A stretch of 64,000 nt of DNA from Brachybacterium squillarum M-6-3. Its GTDB lineage: Bacteria; Actinomycetota; Actinomycetes; Actinomycetales; Dermabacteraceae. Of the stretch, positions 53,778-64,000 are shown in pieces (position 1 is the first letter of the stretch; each line of letters starts with the position of its first letter). A program made the translations under genes and the position numbers. The notes beneath the pieces are model-generated. The model did no database searches. It had not been told where the DNA came from and saw only the letters and a list, made by a program, of their open reading frames with translations. The DNA is taken from the NCBI RefSeq assembly GCF_000225825.1, contig NZ_AGBX01000001.1:620001-684000 (forward strand). Direction: 5' to 3'.

Positions 53778-55097
53778 ATGACCATCCGCGCCGGAGACGT
53801 CTCCACCGAGTCCGTGGAGGCGCTGCTCGCGCAGGATCTCCGTATCCCCCCGTACCAGCGGCCGTACCGGTGGACCCCGGACCTTGCGGTCCGCCTGCTC
53901 CAGGATTTGTCCGATGCGGCACAAGCGACGGACGGGTCCGCATCCGTCACGTATGTCCTCGGGACGGTGATCCTGCATCGTCAGGGCGACGGCACACTGG
54001 ACGTCGTGGACGGTCAGCAGCGTGTCCTCACCCTCCGTCTGATCCTCCTGGCCCTCCGGACACGACTCGGCAACGACCACGGCGACCTCGCCACCGCACT
54101 TTCCGGCGCACCCGACAGCCCCATCGGTGCCGCGTGGACGGAGTTGGCCTCCACCGTCGGGACGCACGGGGTGGAGTCCGAACAACTGGCCGTCTTCATC
54201 CGCGAGCAGTGTCGCGTGTTCCAGGTGGTCACGGACGACCTCGACGAGGCGTTCCGCATTTTCGACTCCCAGAACCACCGCGGTCGTCCGCTCCTCCCCC
54301 ACGATCTCCTGAAGGCGCACCACCTGCGGGAGATGAGCGGGGAGACCGAGGCGAAGCGCGTCGCGGTGGTGGAGGCCTGGGAACGACGGGACCAGGTCGA
54401 CCTGGATCGCCTCTTCTCCCTCTACCTGTTCCGGATCCGCCGGTGGAGCCGCGGCCGACGGGCCGACACCTTCGAGGCGGACGACATCGGCGAGTTCACC
54501 GGCGTCTCCGGCGACCTGACGTCCTCCCCGCGGATCCTCGCTCGCCGGCTCGTCCACGCCTCGGCCCCTGTCCTGGGGATCGGGATGGACGAGGCCGGCC
54601 TCGCCGATCTCCGGAGGGCGCGCTTCCCGATCGACGAGCCGGTCCTCCCGGGGTCCGCCTTCTTCGAAGCCGTCGACGCATGGACGACGGATCTGGAGGC
54701 CGTCCGTTCCCACGCCTTCGACGGCCTGCCCGGCGCCGAGGCCTTCGACGGACTCGCCGCCGGGGGACTGGGACCGCGCCCGTCCCGCCGCCGGTACCGC
54801 TACATCACCGAGCTCTACCTGGCCGCACTGCTGTACGCCGTCTCGACCGTGGGCGAGGTCGACTGGTCACGGACCCGTGACCGGCTGTTCCGATGGGCGT
54901 ACGGGATCCGCCTGGACTACGAGCGCGTCGGGGACCCGACCATCCAGAGGCACGCGATCGCCGAGGACGCCCCGTTCCCGGCCCTGCGGGACGCCGTGTC
55001 GCAACGCGCTCTGGCCCACATCGGGCGCACCGGGCAGGTCCCGGGCCGGACGCACGACACGGAACTCCGCACCCTCCTGGAAGAGGTCTCCTCGTGA
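53778..55097 (+). CDS. DUF262-only protein (GmrS-like subunit)
   Basis: DUF262 is a ParB/Srx-like NTPase domain found in GmrSD-type IV restriction enzymes, BrxU and SspE. The 439-residue protein has IPPYQRPYRW at residues 23-32, the signature DGQQR at 78-82 (VVDGQQRVLTLRLILLALR), and FRIFDSQNHRGRPLLPHDLL with KAHHLREM, the usual conserved block. The C-terminal half is helical (YITELYLAALLYAVSTVGEV) and I find no His-Asn-Asn signature of DUF1524 there, so it lacks a visible nuclease. It overlaps the next gene by GTGA, so the two are made together. I infer an NTP-dependent sensor or regulatory partner in an anti-phage system. Confidence 0.85.
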   Translation: MTIRAGDVSTESVEALLAQDLRIPPYQRPYRWTPDLAVRLLQDLSDAAQATDGSASVTYVLGTVILHRQGDGTLDVVDGQQRVLTLRLILLALRTRLGNDHGDLATALSGAPDSPIGAAWTELASTVGTHGVESEQLAVFIREQCRVFQVVTDDLDEAFRIFDSQNHRGRPLLPHDLLKAHHLREMSGETEAKRVAVVEAWERRDQVDLDRLFSLYLFRIRRWSRGRRADTFEADDIGEFTGVSGDLTSSPRILARRLVHASAPVLGIGMDEAGLADLRRARFPIDEPVLPGSAFFEAVDAWTTDLEAVRSHAFDGLPGAEAFDGLAAGGLGPRPSRRRYRYITELYLAALLYAVSTVGEVDWSRTRDRLFRWAYGIRLDYERVGDPTIQRHAIAEDAPFPALRDAVSQRALAHIGRTGQVPGRTHDTELRTLLEEVSS

Positions 55098-57019
55098 CCA
55101 CCGACCCACGATCCATGCACGCCCGGACCCTCTCGATCCGCGAACTGTTCTCCACGGCGGCGGGACCGCTGAGGGTCCCGATCTACCAGCGCAACTACTC
55201 GTGGACCCCGACGGAGGTCCACCAGCTCCTCGTGGACGTCGTCGACGGGATGGAGCGGGAGCCCTCAGCCCAGGGGAGCTACTTCCTCGGCAATCTCGTG
55301 GTGACCCGCAGGGACGGGGACTGGGAGCTCGTGGACGGGCAGCAACGGGTGACCACGCTCTTCCTCCTGCTGGCGGTCCTCGGACGGCGTCACGAGACGG
55401 TCCCGGTCCTCCGGGGACGTCTCCGGTACGACGCCAGACCCCGGGCGGAACGCACCCTCGGCCGGCTGGTGGGGGGTCCGCCGAATCCCCTGGACGCGGA
55501 CGAGCACGACCCCGCGATGCTGGACGCCGTCCAGGCGATCGAGGTCGAGCTCTCGACCTGGGACCCGATCGACATCACCCGTTTCACGGAGCGACTGCTC
55601 GACCGTGTCCACGTGGTCCGGGCCGAACTCCCCGACGTGGACCTGAACCGCTACTTCGAGGTGATGAACACGCGCAGCGTGCAGCTCGAACCGTCCGACA
55701 TCGTCAAGGCGCGCCTCATGTCCCGGCTGGGCGGTGACCCGGTCGCGCTCCACGCATTCCATCGGATCTGGATGGCCTGCGCCGACATGGACGGCTACGT
55801 GCAGCAGACCCTGACGCGCGAGGACCCCACGTTGCGCTCCGAGATCTTCGGGGAGGCCTGGGACTGGCTCGAGCTGGACGACTTCGCAGGGCTGTCCGAG
55901 AGGCTCACCGGCTCGGCGCGGGTCGTCGACGACCCGGCCCCCGGAGCCGCCTCGATGTGCCTCGACGACGCGATCCTGTCCGCCACCCGGACCGGCGCGG
56001 ACACGCCCGCCGCCGATCGGTCGGACCGTTTCCGCTCAATCATCGACTTCCCGAGCTTCCTGCTGCATGCCCTCGCGACCTTCACGACGGACGGGTCCGT
56101 CGAGGAGCCACGACTGCTCGAGGCCGTTCTCGACGACAACCGCCTCATCGAACTCTTCGAGGGGACGGCCACCCTCGGGAGCCGGACCCAGGTCGAGCAG
56201 TTCGCCGTGCACCTCCTCCGTCTCCGGTTGCTCTTCGATGCCTATGTGGTGAAGCGGCACGCGTCGTCCGCCCACGTCGACGACGACGACTGGTCACTGC
56301 AGCGCGTCGTCAAACGGGAGCGTGGTCGGGGCCGTAGGACGGAGTACTTCATGGACTACGTGGGCACGTTCGGGACCGAGGATCGCGGGGTCCTGCTGCT
56401 GGAGTCGATGTTCCGGATCACGTACACCTCGCCCCGGACCATGCGTTGGCTCACCGAGGTCCTGGCGTACCTCCTGCACCCGGGCCCGGGAGGCATCCGG
56501 GAACACGGTCTGGAGGGCGTGCTGCGGCAGGCCGCGCGACGGGCGGTCCGCGACGCGATCCCGGATTGGGAGGACCCCCCGTCGGGCTTCGCCATCCCCC
56601 GCATCGTCTTCACCTACCTGGACCTGCTGGTGCTCGACCACCGTCGGCCACGGGACCGGGACTTCTCCTTCATGTTCCGGACCTCCATCGAGCACTTCTC
56701 CCCGCGGCACCCGCGCGCCGAACAGGGGATCGACCAGGTCAGCGAGGAGAACCGCGAGAGCCTCGGCAACCTCGCGTTGGTCAGCGTGGGGACGAACTCG
56801 GCCTTCGGGAACCTCTCACCGCGCGCCAAGGCCGACACGTATCAGGACACGATCGTGCAGCAGAGCCCCAAGCTGCAGGTCATGGCCGGGATCGTGCGAT
56901 CGGCGGGCACCGCGACCGCCGTGTGGGGGGACGACGCGATCGTCGCGCACCACCGCGAGATGATGGACCTGCTCCGGCAGGACGTCGACCCCACTGCCGG
57001 GTACCTCGCGCGCGGGTGA
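55094..57019 (+). CDS. DUF262-DUF1524 protein (GmrSD-like HNH nuclease)
   Basis: The 641-residue protein has VPIYQRNYSW at residues 28-37 and DGQQR at 81-85 (LVDGQQRVTTLFLLLAVLG), followed by YFEVMNTRSVQLEPSDIVKA, the DUF262 block. The C-terminus carries a DUF1524-type HNH signature: His534 in SIEHFSPRHP, Asn559 in LGNLALVSVG and Asn568-Ser569 in GTNSAFGNLSPRAKADTY. GmrSD and relatives cut modified phage DNA in an NTP-dependent way; SspE-like members sense phosphorothioate. The target here is unknown. GTG start inside the stop of the preceding gene. The 3' end faces the large helicase gene with 2 bp between stops. Confidence 0.88.
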   Translation: MTTDPRSMHARTLSIRELFSTAAGPLRVPIYQRNYSWTPTEVHQLLVDVVDGMEREPSAQGSYFLGNLVVTRRDGDWELVDGQQRVTTLFLLLAVLGRRHETVPVLRGRLRYDARPRAERTLGRLVGGPPNPLDADEHDPAMLDAVQAIEVELSTWDPIDITRFTERLLDRVHVVRAELPDVDLNRYFEVMNTRSVQLEPSDIVKARLMSRLGGDPVALHAFHRIWMACADMDGYVQQTLTREDPTLRSEIFGEAWDWLELDDFAGLSERLTGSARVVDDPAPGAASMCLDDAILSATRTGADTPAADRSDRFRSIIDFPSFLLHALATFTTDGSVEEPRLLEAVLDDNRLIELFEGTATLGSRTQVEQFAVHLLRLRLLFDAYVVKRHASSAHVDDDDWSLQRVVKRERGRGRRTEYFMDYVGTFGTEDRGVLLLESMFRITYTSPRTMRWLTEVLAYLLHPGPGGIREHGLEGVLRQAARRAVRDAIPDWEDPPSGFAIPRIVFTYLDLLVLDHRRPRDRDFSFMFRTSIEHFSPRHPRAEQGIDQVSEENRESLGNLALVSVGTNSAFGNLSPRAKADTYQDTIVQQSPKLQVMAGIVRSAGTATAVWGDDAIVAHHREMMDLLRQDVDPTAGYLARG

Positions 57020-57021
57020 GG

Positions 57022-60000
57022 TCAGGACCCCGCGTCCTGGTCCGCCCGGAGCAGGGCGCTCCGGATGCCGTCCGTCAGCCGGATCCCCCCGAGGAGACGG
57101 AGTCCACTGCGTAGTCGCTCGTCCTGGCCCCCCGACGCGGCGGCCCGGCGGACGTCCACCATCACGTTCCTGAGCTCCGAGGGGTGGAGCTGGTCGATCG
57201 AGTAGGCGCGGAGCACCCGCGGGCGGTAGCCGGTGAACTGCTCGGGAGCGACGGTGAGGGGCCAGACGAAACCGGACTCATCGAGGTGGAATGCGCTGCG
57301 GTCGACCGCCTGCCACAGCTCGTCGCGGCGTGATGCCCTGACCTTCTTGATGCCGAGGGCGGTGACCACCTGTCGCGCGGCCTCGTCCCGATGGATCGGG
57401 TACTCGGCATCGACCAGGGAGACGAGGAGCTGCTGCATACGATGGGCTTGGTCCGGCTCGGTCGGTGCCGCCTCGAGGTCGGCGACCGTCGCGTGGAACG
57501 GCGGGGACCACGGACGATGCGGCGCGGTCGAGCTCGGGTCGCGGGGCCCCGACGGACCGGTGCAGCCGGACCCGTTCCCGGCTCCACCCCGGGGGCCCTC
57601 GGGACCCTGCGACACCGCACGACCCCGGACCGCGTGCACGTCTCCGACGGCGTGGGGCTCACCGGGAACGATGGCCGGTGCCGCCGTTGCCGTCGACCCG
57701 GAGGGACCCTCGCCGTCCGACGATCCGCCCCGGTCGTCCTCGTCGACAGGGGCAGCCGTGGATGCATCGGCGGCCTCCGCGTCGTCGACCAGTGGGGTGA
57801 CCACCTTTGCCCCGGGATCCATGTCCTCCGCGGCGGTGGCCTCGATCTCGGCGTGGACCGCCTCCACCCGTGCCGCGATGCGGTCGAGGACCGCCTCGCG
57901 CCGCTCCATCCAGTCCAGGAGCCAGACACGTTCGACGGCGGGCCAGCCCGCGACCCCGGTGAGCACGCTGCGCGGGAGGAGGTCACGGTCCACGGCCGTC
58001 CCCCGGTGGGCCCAGGCCACCCCGTCGAGCATGACGGCGACCAGATGAGGTCCGTCGGGCCGTCCGACCCCGAGGTCGACCCGGAAGCTGGACAGCCCCA
58101 GGGAGGTGCTGACGCCGAGACCCCGCTCACGCAGGGCCTGCGCGATGTCCTCCCGGTGGCGGTCGACGGTCCCGGGCCGGCCCTGGCCGTCCGCGAGGGT
58201 GGACACGCCCCGCTGGGCGAGGTCGAGGTAGTCCCGCAGGTCCCGCAACCCTTGGGAGGTGGACCTCTCGGCGTGGAGCTGTGAGGGCTCGAAGGAGGCG
58301 AACACGAGCACCTCCTCGCGGGCGCGGGTCACGGCGACGTTGAGCCGTCGCTCCCCGCCCTCGCGGTTCAAGGGCCCGAAGTTCAGCGGGACCTCCCCCT
58401 TGTCGTTCGCCGAGAAGCCGATCGAGAACAGGATCGTGTCCCGCTCGTCACCCTGGACGTTCTCGAGGTTCTTGACGAACAGCCCTTCCGGATCGTCGAG
58501 CGACTCGAGGACGGACTCGTCCCCGGCCTCGCGCAGCCGTGCCTCGATGAGGTCCCGCTGCGGCATGTTGAAGGTGACGATTCCGAGGGACGGCTCGGTC
58601 GAGGCGCCCGCGAACCGTGCGAGCACGTCCTCCACGACCGCCTCCGCCTCGACCGGATTCGTCCGGAGCGCCTTCCGCGGCGCCCCGGAGCGGAGGAATG
58701 TCCCCTCCACCCGTCGCAGGCGGATGCCGGCCTGACGCCGACCCGGGGTGTCGGCCGTCCCGTCGACGGACGGGGCGACGCCCGGTCCAGGGAACGTCGC
58801 GAGCCGCCCCTCGTAGTACCGGCGGTTCGAGAAGGCGATGAGTTCCTCGGTCCGGGACCGGTAGTGATGACTCAGCCAGTGACGCGGGACGCGTGCGCTG
58901 ACGCATTCCCCGAGGATGGACTCCTCGTCGGGCACGACGGTCTCGTCCTCCTCCTCGTCCGTGTTCCCCCCGGTGAGTTGCGCGAATCGCGTGGGAGGCA
59001 TCTGGCGGGAGTCCCCGACAACCACGACGGAGGTCCCGCGACCCATCGCCCCGATCGCGCCCGCGACGGTGATCTGGGAGGCCTCGTCGAAGACCACCAG
59101 GTCGAACAAGGGCTCGCCGAGCGGGACGAACCGGGCGACGGATTCCGGGCTGACCAGGACACAGGGCATCGACCGGCTGATGACCGATCCGAAGCGGGTG
59201 AAGAGCGAGCGCACCTTCGGGGCCCGTCGACGCCCGGACACCTCACGTCGCAGGTCGCTCGCGAGGCGGCGGCTCTCCGCCGTCTCCCCCGTGGTCCGAT
59301 GCGCGAGGATGCGGGCGCGGACGGCGGCGCCCGCTCCGTCGCGGACGCGTCGGCCGAGGGCATCGAAGCCGTCGATCAGATGGTCGTGCCGCTCACCGTC
59401 GAAGCTGCGCAACGACCCGTGACCACGACGCTCCTCGACCGCGCCCTGCGCCAGGCCCTTGTCGAAGGCCTGGGACAGTTCGCTCGGTTCCACCCGACCG
59501 TCGAGCACGAGCTCGGCCAGGTCCCCGAGGCCGACGTCCCGAAGGGGATCGACGGCTCTCCCGAGGTCGGACCACAGGGCGAGCCCGCGGGGTGTCAGTT
59601 CGTCGGCCCGTGCCCCGCCCAGGGTCGTCACGAGGTGGTCGAGCGGCGATGTGCCCTCGGGGGTCGACCACGTGCCGCCCGCGTGTCCCGTCGCCGTCCG
59701 CCAGAGGTCCGCGACCGCGCGGAGATGGAGCGACATGTTCCCGCGTTCGGCATGGGGGACCCGCTCGACGGCTGCAGCCGTGTCGGTCCCGGCCATACCG
59801 CTCCGGGCGTCACGGGCAGCCCGGAGGCCGGCGAGCTGCTGTGCGACGTGAGCCCGGGCGCGAGGATCGAGGAGCGCAGGTGCCGCGAGGGGGGCCAGGC
59901 CGGGCTGCACGGAGATCCGATGTGCGGCCCGCACCGAGGTGTCGCGCACGGTGAGGAGCGCGTTGACCGCTTGCTCGATCAGCTCGTCGGGGACGGGCGC

Positions 60001-63000
60001 ACCGGGCCGCTCCCACCGCGCCAGAGGGGCGAGCGCGCGCCGCATCCTCCCGCGCTTCCCGAATCGGGCGGATCGGGCTTCGGTGAGTGCGGCCCTGACC
60101 TGGTCGATCGGGCCCCCGATGACATCGGGGCCGTAGTGGTGGAACACCTGTGCCTGGGCGCTGAGCGCAGCGAGTTCGTGCTCGATCCCCCGGGCGCCGG
60201 TCTCCCAGTCGGGGTGGGCGATCGCCTCGATCAGCTCCCAGGGGAGTCCGCGTCCGTCCAGGAGGTCGGCGAGGGTCGCGGCCTCTCCGGCCGACCGGAG
60301 GCCAGTGACGACGGGTCGGAGGGCCTCGGGCGTCCCGCTCACCCGGTCACGGAGCGCCAGGAGGGCATCGACGAGGCCCCCCTCGGTACCGGCCGGGACG
60401 GGACGCGCGAACAGCCGCCATGGGTGCCCGGGCCTGGGCGTGACTGCCCGACTCGCCGCGGTCACCTCGGCCAGCCCCTGCGCGACGCGGTCGATCGCGG
60501 CGCGGTCGAGCCGGGCCACGACGTCCGCGGGGACAGCGAGGGGATCCACGTCGTCCCCGGCGGCGAGATCCCGCGTGTGCGCGGTGTACAGCGACATCCC
60601 CGCTGTGTTCCGCGCGTGCAGGGCGTCCCGGTAGTGGACGAGCTCCCCGCGCCGCGCCTCGAGGGCCCGCCGGTCCGCCGCGAGCCCTTCCTCGTCGACC
60701 TCCGCCTCGAGGTCGAGGGCGGAGAGTATCTTCCGCTTCACCGCCGCGGGCCGCAGGCTCACGTCGTGGAGGTCGAGCACGAGGTCCGAGACCCCGGCCG
60801 CGGCCAGACGCCGGCTGACCACCTCGAGCGCCGCCTGCTTCTCGGCGACGAACAGCACCCGCCGCCCCTCGACCATCGCCTGCACGATCAGGTTGGTGAT
60901 GGTCTGGGACTTGCCCGTCCCCGGCGGCCCCTCGACCACGACGGTCCTGCCGGCGACGGCCTCGGACACCACGAGTGCCTGGGAGGCGTCGGCGGTGGTG
61001 GGGAGCTCGGCGACGAGGCCGTCCAGGTCCCGGCTCCCGGATTCGGGGACGGGATCGACGAACGGCTCGGACGGGCTCTCGACGAGATGTCGGACCAGCG
61101 GGTTCGCCATCACGGCGCGCCAGTCGTCCTCGAGGTCCTTCCAGAGTCGGAACCCTCCGAAGTTGAAGAGCCCGAGATGGACCCGGGTCTCGACCCGGAA
61201 GGGGAGCCCGTACTCGGTCAGGGCATTACGGACGGACTGGAAGGCCTGGTCGAGGTCGATCCCCGCCTCGTCGGTCTCGGGGTCCTCGAGCCCCGGGATG
61301 GAGAGGGACAGGTCGTGGGCGAGACGCTGCAGGAGGGAGTGGTTCGGGGTCGAGGCACCGGTCTCGTCGAGCGCGATCTCGTACCGGGCGCCCCGGGCGC
61401 GGGCCCGGATCGTGACGGGGACGAGGACCAGAGGGGAGACGAGGTCTTTGCCGTCACTGGTCCAGTGGAGGGTGCCGAGGGTGAGGTAGAGGTTGTTGGA
61501 CCCGGTCTCCTCGACGACCGTACGGGCCGTGTTCGCGAGCTTCTGCAGGGCCCGGGCGTAGGATTCTTCGGCCACGTCGAGGATGACCCGATGGTCCTCG
61601 ACCACGCGCTCGGCCAGTACGGTGTCCGTCCGCTCGATCCCGTCGAATGCCTCGAGCGCGAAGGAGGTCCCGGCGTGGAGCATGTCCTCGAAGGCGCCCT
61701 GCACCTCCGTGGGGACGGACAGGGTGTACGCGGCGCGAGGGGTCAGGTTGATGAGTCGGTTGTGGAGGGAGAGGTCCAGGAGCTCCCGCTTCCAGGCCTC
61801 GATGCGCGGCGGGACGTCGGTGTCCCGGGTGATCCGCCGGGCGGTGCCGGGCAGGCTCTCCCGGACAAGACGGGACAGATCACGGGTGGGAGGGGCGTAC
61901 TCGACCACGTCGACGTCCCCGTCGTTCCCGACGACCCGGACGGGCAGCGGGTGGAGCCCCGCGCGGCGAGCGCCACGGATGTCGATCACCTGCTGGATCC
62001 TGTCGACGGCCAGGCCTCCGGCAGCACGCTGGGCGTGCTCGTGGAGGGCCGCCTGCCCCGGGTACTCGGGCGCGGTGAGCATCGTGGTCTCGACCAGACG
62101 GAGGGCACCCCGTTCGATCTGGTTCGCGAGCAACAGTGGTGCCGGGTGCGGGTCGGGATCCTGCCGACGCTCCTCCGTCCGCCAGTAGCCGACGAAGATG
62201 TGGCCGTTCAGCAGCCACAGCTGACCGTCGATGCCCGCCTGCTCCAGCAGGCTCGCGAGGAGGACCGTCGAGTCGAGGCAGGTGGCGAGTCGCTCCTCAA
62301 GGACCTCCGGTGCGGATCGGATGCGTTGGGTGTCCTCGGCCCACGCGGCCGGGGGGTTCGCATAGGTGAGGCCCCGGGCATGCACGGCGCGGCAGATCGC
62401 GTCGACGATGGCGTCGTTGCGTTCCTCGTCCCCCTGGTAGGCGTCGAGTCCCCCGCGCCCGGTCCTCGCCGCGAGGATCGTGTCGGCCTCCCGCAGCAGT
62501 CCGGACAGGGCCGGTTCCTGCGGCTGGACGAAGCCGGCCAGGGTGTGCTCGACTCCGTCGTCGGGCGCGAGCCGCCAGTTGCGAGGTCCGTGGACGGTGA
62601 TGGCGCCGCCCTCGGGGAGCACGGTCCGCTCCACGCCACCGGCCGAGAGGGTGACCCGGACCCGGGCCTCCGTCACCTGGTCGAGGACCAGGAGTGCCGC
62701 GCGGTCGAGGACCAGCTCGACCTCGGGTTCCTGGCGGTCCCCGGCCGCGAGGGTGACCACTTGGTCGCTGGCCAGGGAGATCGAGGACGCATCGACCACG
62801 AGCGCGACCGACACCCGGAGGATCGGGAGGTCGGAGACCCCGCCCGTGAGGGCGATGCCGAGCCGGACCACGGGCCGCCGGAGGACCGACGAGGCGTGGA
62901 CGGGGCGGGGATCGTGCGAGAAGCCGACGCCGACGGAATCGAGTGCAGCGGCGGCGTCGCCGGCGGGACGCGGAGACGGTGCCCCGGCCGGGTCGGCCCC

Positions 63001-63552
63001 TGCATCCTCATCGGTGGACGGCCCCGTGCCGGCGCCGGAAGAGGTCGCGCCATCGACAGGAGGTGCCGCGTCCGCCTGCAGGTCCCGGACCGCCTGCAGG
63101 AGGTCTTCGATCTCGGCGAGGGCGTCGTCCAGCTCGAGGAGCAGGAAGAGACCGCCCACCTCCATGAGGACCCGGGTCGCCTCCGCGGTGTCGACGGCCA
63201 CCGTGGCGTGGGCGAAGCGGTTCCGGGTCCCCAGGACGGCCCGCGAGGCCTGGGCGACCTCGTCGTCCACCGGGATCAACGGACGGCCCGACACCCGGAA
63301 GTGCAGGAGTTTCAGTTGGACGGCCGGGTCGGTGATCTCGTGGACCATCCCCCGCCGGCCACGTTCGCGGTCCCTGGCGGTGAAAGCGCGCTGCCAGCTC
63401 TCCTCGATGCCCTGTTCACGGAGCCGTACCTCCACGTAGGGCTGGAGGTGCTGCGGGAGGACCTGGAGCAGCGCTCGGGTCACGTAGTCGATGGCCTGGG
63501 GCTGCACGGCGGCTCCGGTTCGTGTCTCGTGGGGGCGAGAGGGTGTGCCCAT
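57022..63552 (-). CDS. HEPN-DUF4011-SF1 helicase-Vsr-DUF3320 defence protein (Hhe-like)
   Basis: The 2,176-residue protein has, in order: an N-terminal Swt1-like HEPN segment with RNRFAH (Arg110...His115, the RNase R-x4-H motif); beta domains; a transglutaminase-like stretch with Cys425 (LATCLDSTVLLASLLEQAGI); DUF4011 from about 583 (RIEAWKRELLDLSLHNRLIN); an SF1 helicase with Walker A GPPGTGKSQT (Lys881), Walker B VVFDEAS (Asp1489-Glu1490) and motif VI VAVTRARE (Arg1743); a Vsr-like (MTES_1575) endonuclease with VAVMLDGVAWAHRGTAVDRD (Asp1843, Asp1855, Asp1857); and DUF3320 from about 2030. From memory, DUF4011-helicase-Vsr-DUF3320 proteins were shown to protect against phage under the name Hhe. 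It acts in the cytoplasm. Start 63552 is the first ATG; no strong ribosome-binding site is seen, so coupling to the upstream gene is possible. Confidence 0.88.
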   Translation of the reverse strand: MGTPSRPHETRTGAAVQPQAIDYVTRALLQVLPQHLQPYVEVRLREQGIEESWQRAFTARDRERGRRGMVHEITDPAVQLKLLHFRVSGRPLIPVDDEVAQASRAVLGTRNRFAHATVAVDTAEATRVLMEVGGLFLLLELDDALAEIEDLLQAVRDLQADAAPPVDGATSSGAGTGPSTDEDAGADPAGAPSPRPAGDAAAALDSVGVGFSHDPRPVHASSVLRRPVVRLGIALTGGVSDLPILRVSVALVVDASSISLASDQVVTLAAGDRQEPEVELVLDRAALLVLDQVTEARVRVTLSAGGVERTVLPEGGAITVHGPRNWRLAPDDGVEHTLAGFVQPQEPALSGLLREADTILAARTGRGGLDAYQGDEERNDAIVDAICRAVHARGLTYANPPAAWAEDTQRIRSAPEVLEERLATCLDSTVLLASLLEQAGIDGQLWLLNGHIFVGYWRTEERRQDPDPHPAPLLLANQIERGALRLVETTMLTAPEYPGQAALHEHAQRAAGGLAVDRIQQVIDIRGARRAGLHPLPVRVVGNDGDVDVVEYAPPTRDLSRLVRESLPGTARRITRDTDVPPRIEAWKRELLDLSLHNRLINLTPRAAYTLSVPTEVQGAFEDMLHAGTSFALEAFDGIERTDTVLAERVVEDHRVILDVAEESYARALQKLANTARTVVEETGSNNLYLTLGTLHWTSDGKDLVSPLVLVPVTIRARARGARYEIALDETGASTPNHSLLQRLAHDLSLSIPGLEDPETDEAGIDLDQAFQSVRNALTEYGLPFRVETRVHLGLFNFGGFRLWKDLEDDWRAVMANPLVRHLVESPSEPFVDPVPESGSRDLDGLVAELPTTADASQALVVSEAVAGRTVVVEGPPGTGKSQTITNLIVQAMVEGRRVLFVAEKQAALEVVSRRLAAAGVSDLVLDLHDVSLRPAAVKRKILSALDLEAEVDEEGLAADRRALEARRGELVHYRDALHARNTAGMSLYTAHTRDLAAGDDVDPLAVPADVVARLDRAAIDRVAQGLAEVTAASRAVTPRPGHPWRLFARPVPAGTEGGLVDALLALRDRVSGTPEALRPVVTGLRSAGEAATLADLLDGRGLPWELIEAIAHPDWETGARGIEHELAALSAQAQVFHHYGPDVIGGPIDQVRAALTEARSARFGKRGRMRRALAPLARWERPGAPVPDELIEQAVNALLTVRDTSVRAAHRISVQPGLAPLAAPALLDPRARAHVAQQLAGLRAARDARSGMAGTDTAAAVERVPHAERGNMSLHLRAVADLWRTATGHAGGTWSTPEGTSPLDHLVTTLGGARADELTPRGLALWSDLGRAVDPLRDVGLGDLAELVLDGRVEPSELSQAFDKGLAQGAVEERRGHGSLRSFDGERHDHLIDGFDALGRRVRDGAGAAVRARILAHRTTGETAESRRLASDLRREVSGRRRAPKVRSLFTRFGSVISRSMPCVLVSPESVARFVPLGEPLFDLVVFDEASQITVAGAIGAMGRGTSVVVVGDSRQMPPTRFAQLTGGNTDEEEDETVVPDEESILGECVSARVPRHWLSHHYRSRTEELIAFSNRRYYEGRLATFPGPGVAPSVDGTADTPGRRQAGIRLRRVEGTFLRSGAPRKALRTNPVEAEAVVEDVLARFAGASTEPSLGIVTFNMPQRDLIEARLREAGDESVLESLDDPEGLFVKNLENVQGDERDTILFSIGFSANDKGEVPLNFGPLNREGGERRLNVAVTRAREEVLVFASFEPSQLHAERSTSQGLRDLRDYLDLAQRGVSTLADGQGRPGTVDRHREDIAQALRERGLGVSTSLGLSSFRVDLGVGRPDGPHLVAVMLDGVAWAHRGTAVDRDLLPRSVLTGVAGWPAVERVWLLDWMERREAVLDRIAARVEAVHAEIEATAAEDMDPGAKVVTPLVDDAEAADASTAAPVDEDDRGGSSDGEGPSGSTATAAPAIVPGEPHAVGDVHAVRGRAVSQGPEGPRGGAGNGSGCTGPSGPRDPSSTAPHRPWSPPFHATVADLEAAPTEPDQAHRMQQLLVSLVDAEYPIHRDEAARQVVTALGIKKVRASRRDELWQAVDRSAFHLDESGFVWPLTVAPEQFTGYRPRVLRAYSIDQLHPSELRNVMVDVRRAAASGGQDERLRSGLRLLGGIRLTDGIRSALLRADQDAGS

Positions 63553-63609
63553 GATGTCATCGGGCTCCGACAGGCGGCGATGCTCGCCGCGGGTCGGGAA
63601 AGAGAGTCG

Positions 63610-64000
63610 TCATCCTCCCGACGTGCCGAGGTGACGCCCGATGTACCCGACGTAGACCTTGCCGGTGCCGCCGACGTCGTCGTGGAAGTGCAGTCGAGGG
63701 CTGATCCGTCCGACCTGGGTAAGTTTCAGGTGGGCCCACATGTGCACGTGACCCGCGGGATCCACCGCTGCGGGCACGGGGAGCAATCGTTGATCGGCGA
63801 GGTCCCGTCGAGCGGTGGTCGTCTCGGACTCCCGTGCCGCGTAGTGCGAGACCCCGAACCCGGCGTACCCGCTCGGGGTGGTCCGCAGGTAGCCGTACAG
63901 GCCCTCGTCATGGACGCCTTCGGCCCGCGCCCGGGCGTAGTCGTAGAGGGCGAGCAGGCCCTCCCAGCACCGCTTGGCGCCCACCGTGTTGGTGTCGTAC
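63610..64000 (-). CDS. Unrecognised protein upstream of the Hhe-like gene (C-terminal part; runs off right edge)
   Basis: The frame is open from the right edge (YDTNTVGAKRCWEGLLALYD) to the stop at 63610, about 129 codons. A helix (CWEGLLALYDYARARAEG) is followed by an alpha/beta tail with ARESETTTARRDLADQRLLP, VHMWAHLKLTQVGRISPRLH, FHDDVGGTGKVYVGYIGRHL. The tail looks like a compact conserved C-terminal module, but I cannot name the family. The gene ends 57 nt before the Hhe-like start on the same strand, so the two are likely one transcript. The start lies outside the window; a GTG at 63984 is unlikely to be it because the frame continues upstream. Confidence 0.65.
   Translation of the reverse strand, partial: YDTNTVGAKRCWEGLLALYDYARARAEGVHDEGLYGYLRTTPSGYAGFGVSHYAARESETTTARRDLADQRLLPVPAAVDPAGHVHMWAHLKLTQVGRISPRLHFHDDVGGTGKVYVGYIGRHLGTSGG

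Follow-up and report, generated by a model that had tools for sequence, protein, structure and literature searches.

TgvAB is a two-protein GmrSD-like type IV restriction system from the VPI-2 island of Vibrio cholerae (PMC11411939). Giant proteins with the architecture HEPN, transglutaminase, superfamily 1 (SF1) helicase, Vsr and winged helix-turn-helix (wHTH) were published in 2013 (PMC3710099), and PMC12458937 places ARMADA type II of E. coli beside Druantia III, the two being co-directional. We compared these systems with a locus at positions 53,778 to 64,000 of a 64,000-nucleotide (nt) stretch of Brachybacterium squillarum M-6-3 DNA (contig NZ_AGBX01000001.1, positions 620,001 to 684,000; hereafter the window), in which two DUF262 genes converge on the gene of a protein of this giant type (hereafter the giant), itself preceded by a gene that we call X. 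Past the window edge, on the same contig, the minus strand carries the co-directional series DruF-DruE, ArmA-ArmB-ArmC-ArmD, X and the giant.

The preliminary description had proposed that the DUF262 pair, the giant and the gene before it form one composite system. We consider it likely that the locus is one end of a roughly 38-kilobase (kb) chromosomal defence island stacked from separate, mostly known systems, and not a four-gene composite. The systems appear independent because the DUF262 pair is rarely found by giants and was not seen by other ArmD genes, because in another genome of the genus (G244) the stretch examined downstream of ARMADA lacks X, the giant and such a pair, and because the giant pairs in a tree with a protein from Schaalia. 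The gene content, order, domains and motifs observed in the window are as follows (aa, amino acids):

53778..55097, + strand: TgvA-like DUF262 protein, 439 aa; DGQQR at 78, DUF7834 as the C-terminal half
55094..57019, + strand: TgvB-like DUF262 and DUF1524 (HNH) protein, 641 aa; DGQQR at 81, HFSP at 534
57022..63552, - strand: giant HEPN-transglutaminase-DUF4011/SF1 helicase-Vsr-DUF3320 protein, 2176 aa (Pfam, PADLOC)
63148..63468, - strand: HEPN_Swt1 domain of the giant, residues 29-135; RNRFAH (R-x4-H) at 110
61942..62541, - strand: transglutaminase-like region of the giant, residues 338-537; Cys425/His451/Glu488 (by alignment; name from PMC3710099)
61321..61785, - strand: DUF4011 of the giant, residues 590-744 (Pfam)
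60799..60990, - strand: first half of the SF1 helicase of the giant, best AAA_11 stretch, residues 855-918; Walker A GPPGTGKS at 875
58297..58920, - strand: second half of the SF1 helicase of the giant (AAA_12), residues 1545-1752 (Pfam)
57868..58152, - strand: MTES_1575 Vsr-type restriction endonuclease domain of the giant, residues 1801-1895; the Glu of E-C-D-G is Met
57340..57447, - strand: DUF3320 wHTH-like segment of the giant, residues 2036-2071, under the Pfam cut-off
63610..64000, - strand: 3' part of gene X

Open reading frames (ORFs) and Pfam bear out the placement given earlier for the DUF262 pair with its GTGA overlap and for the Hhe-like protein of 2,176 residues 2 bp away on the other strand. 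The earlier family calls, GmrSD-type and Hhe-type, were also right, and every piece is a defence-type gene. The "unknown gene" before the giant is indeed present, but the window edge cuts it: its true span is 63610-65700 or 63610-65841 (- strand; window numbering, as for all positions beyond 64,000). Likewise, the domains listed for the giant were correct, but the transglutaminase-like region between HEPN and helicase had been overlooked.

The DUF262 pair, the giant and their neighbourhoods

The first DUF262 protein carries GmrSD_N and DUF7834 in Pfam, and the second GmrSD_N and GmrSD_C (DUF1524; 39.8 bits against a cut-off of 23). The two genes are adjacent with a 4-nt overlap and open frames throughout, DUF1524 is present in the second protein only, DGQQR in both, and the HNH/His-Me motif reads HFSP. 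On these grounds, the pair is a predicted self-contained TgvAB-type two-protein type IV restriction system, the relationship being judged by domains, motifs and a Klebsiella plasmid pair that served as a proxy for the V. cholerae proteins themselves. The first protein matched 887 plasmid records by tblastn, 852 of them from Klebsiella. In the one record opened, NZ_KY271407, its homologue (40.5% identity over most of the length) overlaps by 4 nt with another DUF262 gene downstream (41.7% identity). For the 17-kb stretch displayed, the gene table, which describes itself as incomplete, contains neither a giant nor an ARMADA gene.

The best 80 relatives of the giant within a sample of a genome-contig collection were retrieved with an alignment as the query, a single giant sequence having given no matches to genome contigs, and up to 10 kb was scanned on each side, many of these stretches being cut by a contig end. 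TgvA or TgvB (similarity at E 1e-6 or better) lay beside none of the 80, and X likewise beside none; a home-made DUF262 profile added one weak match (L028). We also surveyed 51 other giant-family places in 47 other genomes among 297 of the same order, with about 6.6 kb per side (~20 kb fetched, several stretches cut by contig ends). X was seen at 0 of the 51 and a TgvAB-like pair near the giant at one (G089, L225). The DUF262-giant pairing is therefore rare in both sets. In addition, neither TgvA nor TgvB was found near any of 33 other ArmD loci.

Single DUF262 genes were also seen. One (L139 6924-8681, - strand) lies convergently downstream of ARMADA in G103; it was the one gene convergent with ArmD that the home-made profile returned, and is itself a seed of that profile, which further gave a weak match in L165, not an ARMADA locus. 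On a Tsukamurella plasmid (L013 33370-35232, - strand), a single convergent DUF262 gene follows ARMADA after an IS21 element.

The giant, whose frame is open throughout, exceeds the Pfam cut-offs for DUF4011, AAA_11/AAA_12, the MTES_1575 Vsr-type domain and, narrowly, HEPN_Swt1 (28.1 bits, cut-off 27.5), with the R-x4-H motif kept. DUF3320 scores 20.3 bits, below its cut-off of 25. PADLOC returned PDC-S37 at 850 bits and Hhe at 350 bits. The HEPN, transglutaminase, DUF4011/SF1 helicase, Vsr and (sub-threshold) DUF3320/wHTH regions that mark MTES_1575/Hhe proteins are thus united in one protein. In a 20-row tree, it pairs with the Schaalia protein (support 100/100) and not with the ARMADA-adjacent giant of Kocuria; the G047 giant is absent from this tree. 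The flanks of the Schaalia giant gave no ARMADA, X or TgvAB-like match.

All five plasmid rows have E-C-D-G..Y-H as their Vsr motif; the window giant has M-L-D-G..W, Met replacing Glu (residues 1838-1850, window about 58003-58041, - strand). An intact Vsr motif of the PD-(D/E)xK kind is accordingly not found in the window giant, although intactness may not define the family. In the alignment, which took only frames above 1000 aa and left 3 rows uncovered at the motif, Glu was absent from all 15 covered actinobacterial rows among the best 80 relatives (16 such loci, L068 being excluded for the length of its frame); of the non-actinobacterial rows, 28 of the 62 covered retain it. Among the same-order rows it was absent from 29 of 48, a count that includes the window and two duplicates, and kept in 19, mostly rows without the transglutaminase columns. 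The rows named with the Glu observation are L019, L020, L021, L022, L056, L145 and L225; many, not all, proteobacterial relatives retain the residue. The loss is shared along the transglutaminase-bearing actinobacterial branch, including the other 13 rows of the window giant's branch in the 20-row tree; it is not unique to the window giant and also occurs elsewhere.

ARMADA and the Druantia-like pair beyond the window

The genes upstream of X in the minus-strand series, assigned by Pfam, PADLOC and, for the Arm proteins, alignment to an E. coli plasmid, are:

65777-68155, - strand: ArmD
68148-74627, - strand: ArmC
74631-79580, - strand: ArmB
79592-82501, - strand: ArmA
83206-88701, - strand: DruE, 1396 bits to the PADLOC DruE2 model
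88698-91853, - strand: DruF, 549 bits to the PADLOC DruF2 model

BrxHII-like, PglX-like, YprA-like and UvrD helicase genes, the mark of ARMADA type II, stand here in strict order, with gaps of 11, 3 and -8 nt from ArmA to ArmD. The E. coli plasmid has the four counterparts in the same order, and each alignment spans most of the Arm protein at 28-34% identity; the name ARMADA is absent from that record. In type II, ArmD has a RelE-like N-terminus; the N-terminal region of the ArmD reported here aligns to the E. coli ArmD N-terminus (E 2e-11) and gave no RelE match in Pfam. The model of the corresponding N-terminus from a Kocuria ArmD homologue was of low confidence (predicted local distance difference test score, pLDDT, 55.7) and was unused for fold search.

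About 700 nt separate DruE from ArmA, and a 188-aa ORF between them is probably no gene, having no Pfam or PADLOC match. The Druantia type II set comprises DruM, DruF, DruG and DruE. No DruM or DruG was present among the five frames scanned with PADLOC, and Pfam marks the four genes farther upstream as metabolic. The DruF-DruE pair is thus best described as putatively Druantia-like only. At two of the 33 other ArmD loci (L142 in G077 and L143 in G173), DruE and DruF lie downstream of ArmD and convergent with ARMADA, again a pairing of ARMADA with the DruF type of Druantia and not with type III; the upstream sides were fetched for few of these loci.

X is 696 or 743 aa long, depending on the start chosen. 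It has no Pfam or PDB match and shows weak C-terminal similarity to HEC-07 and NsnC; a literature search on HEC-07 gave nothing useful. Seven plasmid records match its C-terminal part, one of which, for a Kitasatospora protein, also matches an N-terminal part.

G244 carries ArmA to ArmD (58-74% identity, depending on the piece). The 12.6 kb that follow its ArmD contain neither X nor a giant nor a TgvAB-like pair, and DruF is absent from the 5.5 kb preceding its ArmA. Two of 19 genomes of the genus hold the ArmD family, and one, our own, the giant family. Ten island genes have a lower G+C content at third codon positions (GC3) than a background of 33 genes (Mann-Whitney p 8e-5), a comparison biased because the background genes were hand-picked from calls favouring high GC3. 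The ARMADA genes lie at 0.92-0.95, X and the giant at 0.87-0.89, and TgvA/B at 0.88-0.91. No transfer RNA genes were found in the stretches scanned, and one direct and one inverted 13-mer, considered as island-bounding repeats, were taken for chance.

Elsewhere, giants of Nocardia and Mycobacterium sp. lie beside SMC-type ATPases (L023 2022-4502 and L030 7315-9795), both of 826 aa and with mad3 as the best PADLOC match. Three small Microbacterium chocolatum "plasmids" (L008, L009, L016) hold broken pieces of a DUF4011 gene, two of them also UvrD pieces; they may be assembly artefacts, because one also carries homoserine dehydrogenase and threonine synthase genes.

Separate systems or a larger unit

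Several observations weigh against a simple stack of separate systems. Among the 297 same-order genomes, in which the giant family was detected by a 649-residue piece, 34 hold the ArmD family, 48 the giant family and 13 both. A one-sided Fisher test, which takes no account of relatedness or genome size, gives p 7.6e-4, and 1.8e-3 when this genome is left out. Five of the 13 (our own, G047, G024, G201 and G263) have the two families on a single contig within a span of about 25 kb. The 57 nt between X and the giant are a spacing like that of operon genes. The giant may thus be more than a bystander of ARMADA, because a giant follows ArmD closely and co-directionally in G047 and Kocuria varians as well, and because of these five close cases. 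Furthermore, in G089 (L225 3631-12593) a giant relative is followed after about 45 nt, on one strand, by a TgvAB-like pair with a 4-nt overlap, so there may be some link between the giant and such pairs. However, the G089 giant relative has neither HEPN nor transglutaminase by alignment, and both orientation and giant subtype differ from the window.

The first set of observations would fit an extended ARMADA, in which the site after ArmD is repeatedly filled by a DUF4011-helicase giant, sometimes with a middle gene before it, that serves as an added effector working with ARMADA, TgvAB being a separate neighbour. We regard this as possible but not favoured. The same order and strand do occur in three genera: in G047, the giant begins 84 nt after ArmD, with ArmA, ArmB and ArmC upstream (ArmB and ArmC some 2.5 kb apart), and in Kocuria varians ArmC, ArmD, an Mrr nuclease and the giant share a strand on a contig that starts inside ArmC. 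This Mrr-type nuclease (L056 7698-8834; PADLOC PDC-S02) stands where the window locus has X. G024 has its giant on the strand of ArmD, some 17 kb farther downstream. However, ArmC accompanies ArmD at 26 of the 33 other ArmD loci, and a giant was in the stretch fetched at one of these 26 (G047, L145), six of the stretches ending within about 6 kb of ArmD. The ArmD matches of G201 and G263 are weak, and ArmC was not seen in G263. From the other side, ArmD was near three of the best 80 giant relatives (Kocuria, Nocardia and Prescottella), in Prescottella on the other strand and about 6.5 kb away. The window and Kocuria giants sit on different branches, the middle gene differs or is absent, four genes suffice for ARMADA in E. 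coli (PMC12458937), and co-occurrence is also expected from defence-rich genomes, the statistic being uncorrected for relatedness.

What is mildly new is that here, as in G047 and Kocuria varians, a giant follows ArmD on the same strand, with a middle gene that differs or is absent. Such an arrangement is compatible with recruitment that happened repeatedly, or with the clustering usual in islands. The adjacency in three genera exceeds, in our judgement, what random genes would show, and is also typical of defence islands. A more specific proposal, which we hold to be rather unlikely, is that the position after armD has repeatedly and independently recruited DUF4011-helicase giants with X, Mrr or no middle gene, the Vsr domain serving, in the transglutaminase-bearing actinobacterial branch, as a DNA-recognising pseudonuclease and HEPN as the effector, to give ARMADA a second, RNA-cleaving layer. 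If such an add-on exists, it would link direct, non-abortive defence with a HEPN protein and explain the ArmD-giant co-occurrence.

That the DUF262 pair, the giant and X form one system, as first proposed, is improbable. The 2-nt convergent gap between the second DUF262 gene and the giant speaks for it, as do the G089 arrangement and, in G050 (L217), a DUF262 gene that is truncated by the contig end and lies 2.7 kb from a giant. Taken alone, the gap is a weak sign of co-inheritance because the window has other small convergent gaps (9, 13, 22 and 30 nt by crude gene calls). We rejected the composite on the neighbourhood counts at giant and ArmD loci, in which the only pair near a giant is that of G089, with its other orientation and subtype, and in which X adjoins no other giant. 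Together with the free-standing pair of the Klebsiella plasmid stretch, these counts also speak against the idea that the four genes have been inherited as a unit. The check suggested at the outset, co-occurrence within 15 kb, came out mostly against a composite over a scanned radius of about 6.6-10 kb, less at contig ends. Least probable of all, the genes after ARMADA would be decaying passengers without function: the Vsr acid is missing in the giant, but this change is common to 13 other branch rows and is therefore not recent decay, the frames are open with lengths like those of relatives, and the HEPN R-x4-H, Walker A/B, transglutaminase Cys-His and both DGQQR motifs are retained.

Proposed working and comparison with described systems

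As one end of a stacked island, the locus would combine several modes of defence, with all activities and targets taken from relatives. ARMADA and Druantia would act directly on invading DNA. TgvAB, with a nucleoside triphosphatase (NTPase)/recognition domain of the DUF262 kind in each of its two proteins and a single HNH nuclease, may cleave phage DNA whose modified cytosines might let it evade the other systems. The SF1 helicase of the giant could sense DNA or replication structures, and the giant is proposed to act through its HEPN ribonuclease because the Vsr site is degenerate. The loss of the Vsr motif along its branch thereby offers a testable prediction of which domain is the effector. 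More generally, the meeting point of several known systems can pass for a new one when genes are tightly spaced at a window edge.

The pair resembles TgvAB (PMC11411939) in having neighbouring genes, an N-terminal DUF262 with DGQQR in both proteins and DUF1524/HNH only in the second; it differs in not being embedded in a type I restriction-modification operon. The giant shares its domain order, HEPN and transglutaminase included, with the MTES_1575-type giants (PMC3710099), PADLOC PDC-S37 and Hhe. In contrast to these, it ends an ARMADA operon, and its E-C-D-G acid is replaced, as in 13 branch rows, in a comparison that excludes the motif of MTES_1575 itself. DUF4011, DUF3320, Hhe and DUF262 have no mention in the main text of PMC12458937 by term search, the supplements lying outside its scope. 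Among the papers returned by a literature search, conducted mostly at the level of listings and without subscription papers or outside preprints, none was recognised as describing ARMADA with DUF4011 proteins.

ARMADA type II (PMC12458937) has the same strict ArmA-ArmB-ArmC-ArmD order with matching domains; unlike it, the operon reported here continues on the same strand into X and the giant. The published ARMADA partner is Druantia III (PMC12458937), whereas the neighbour here is a DruF-DruE pair matching the PADLOC type II/IV models, with a DruE2-like YprA helicase and a full-length DruF that lie upstream of ARMADA and co-directional with it.

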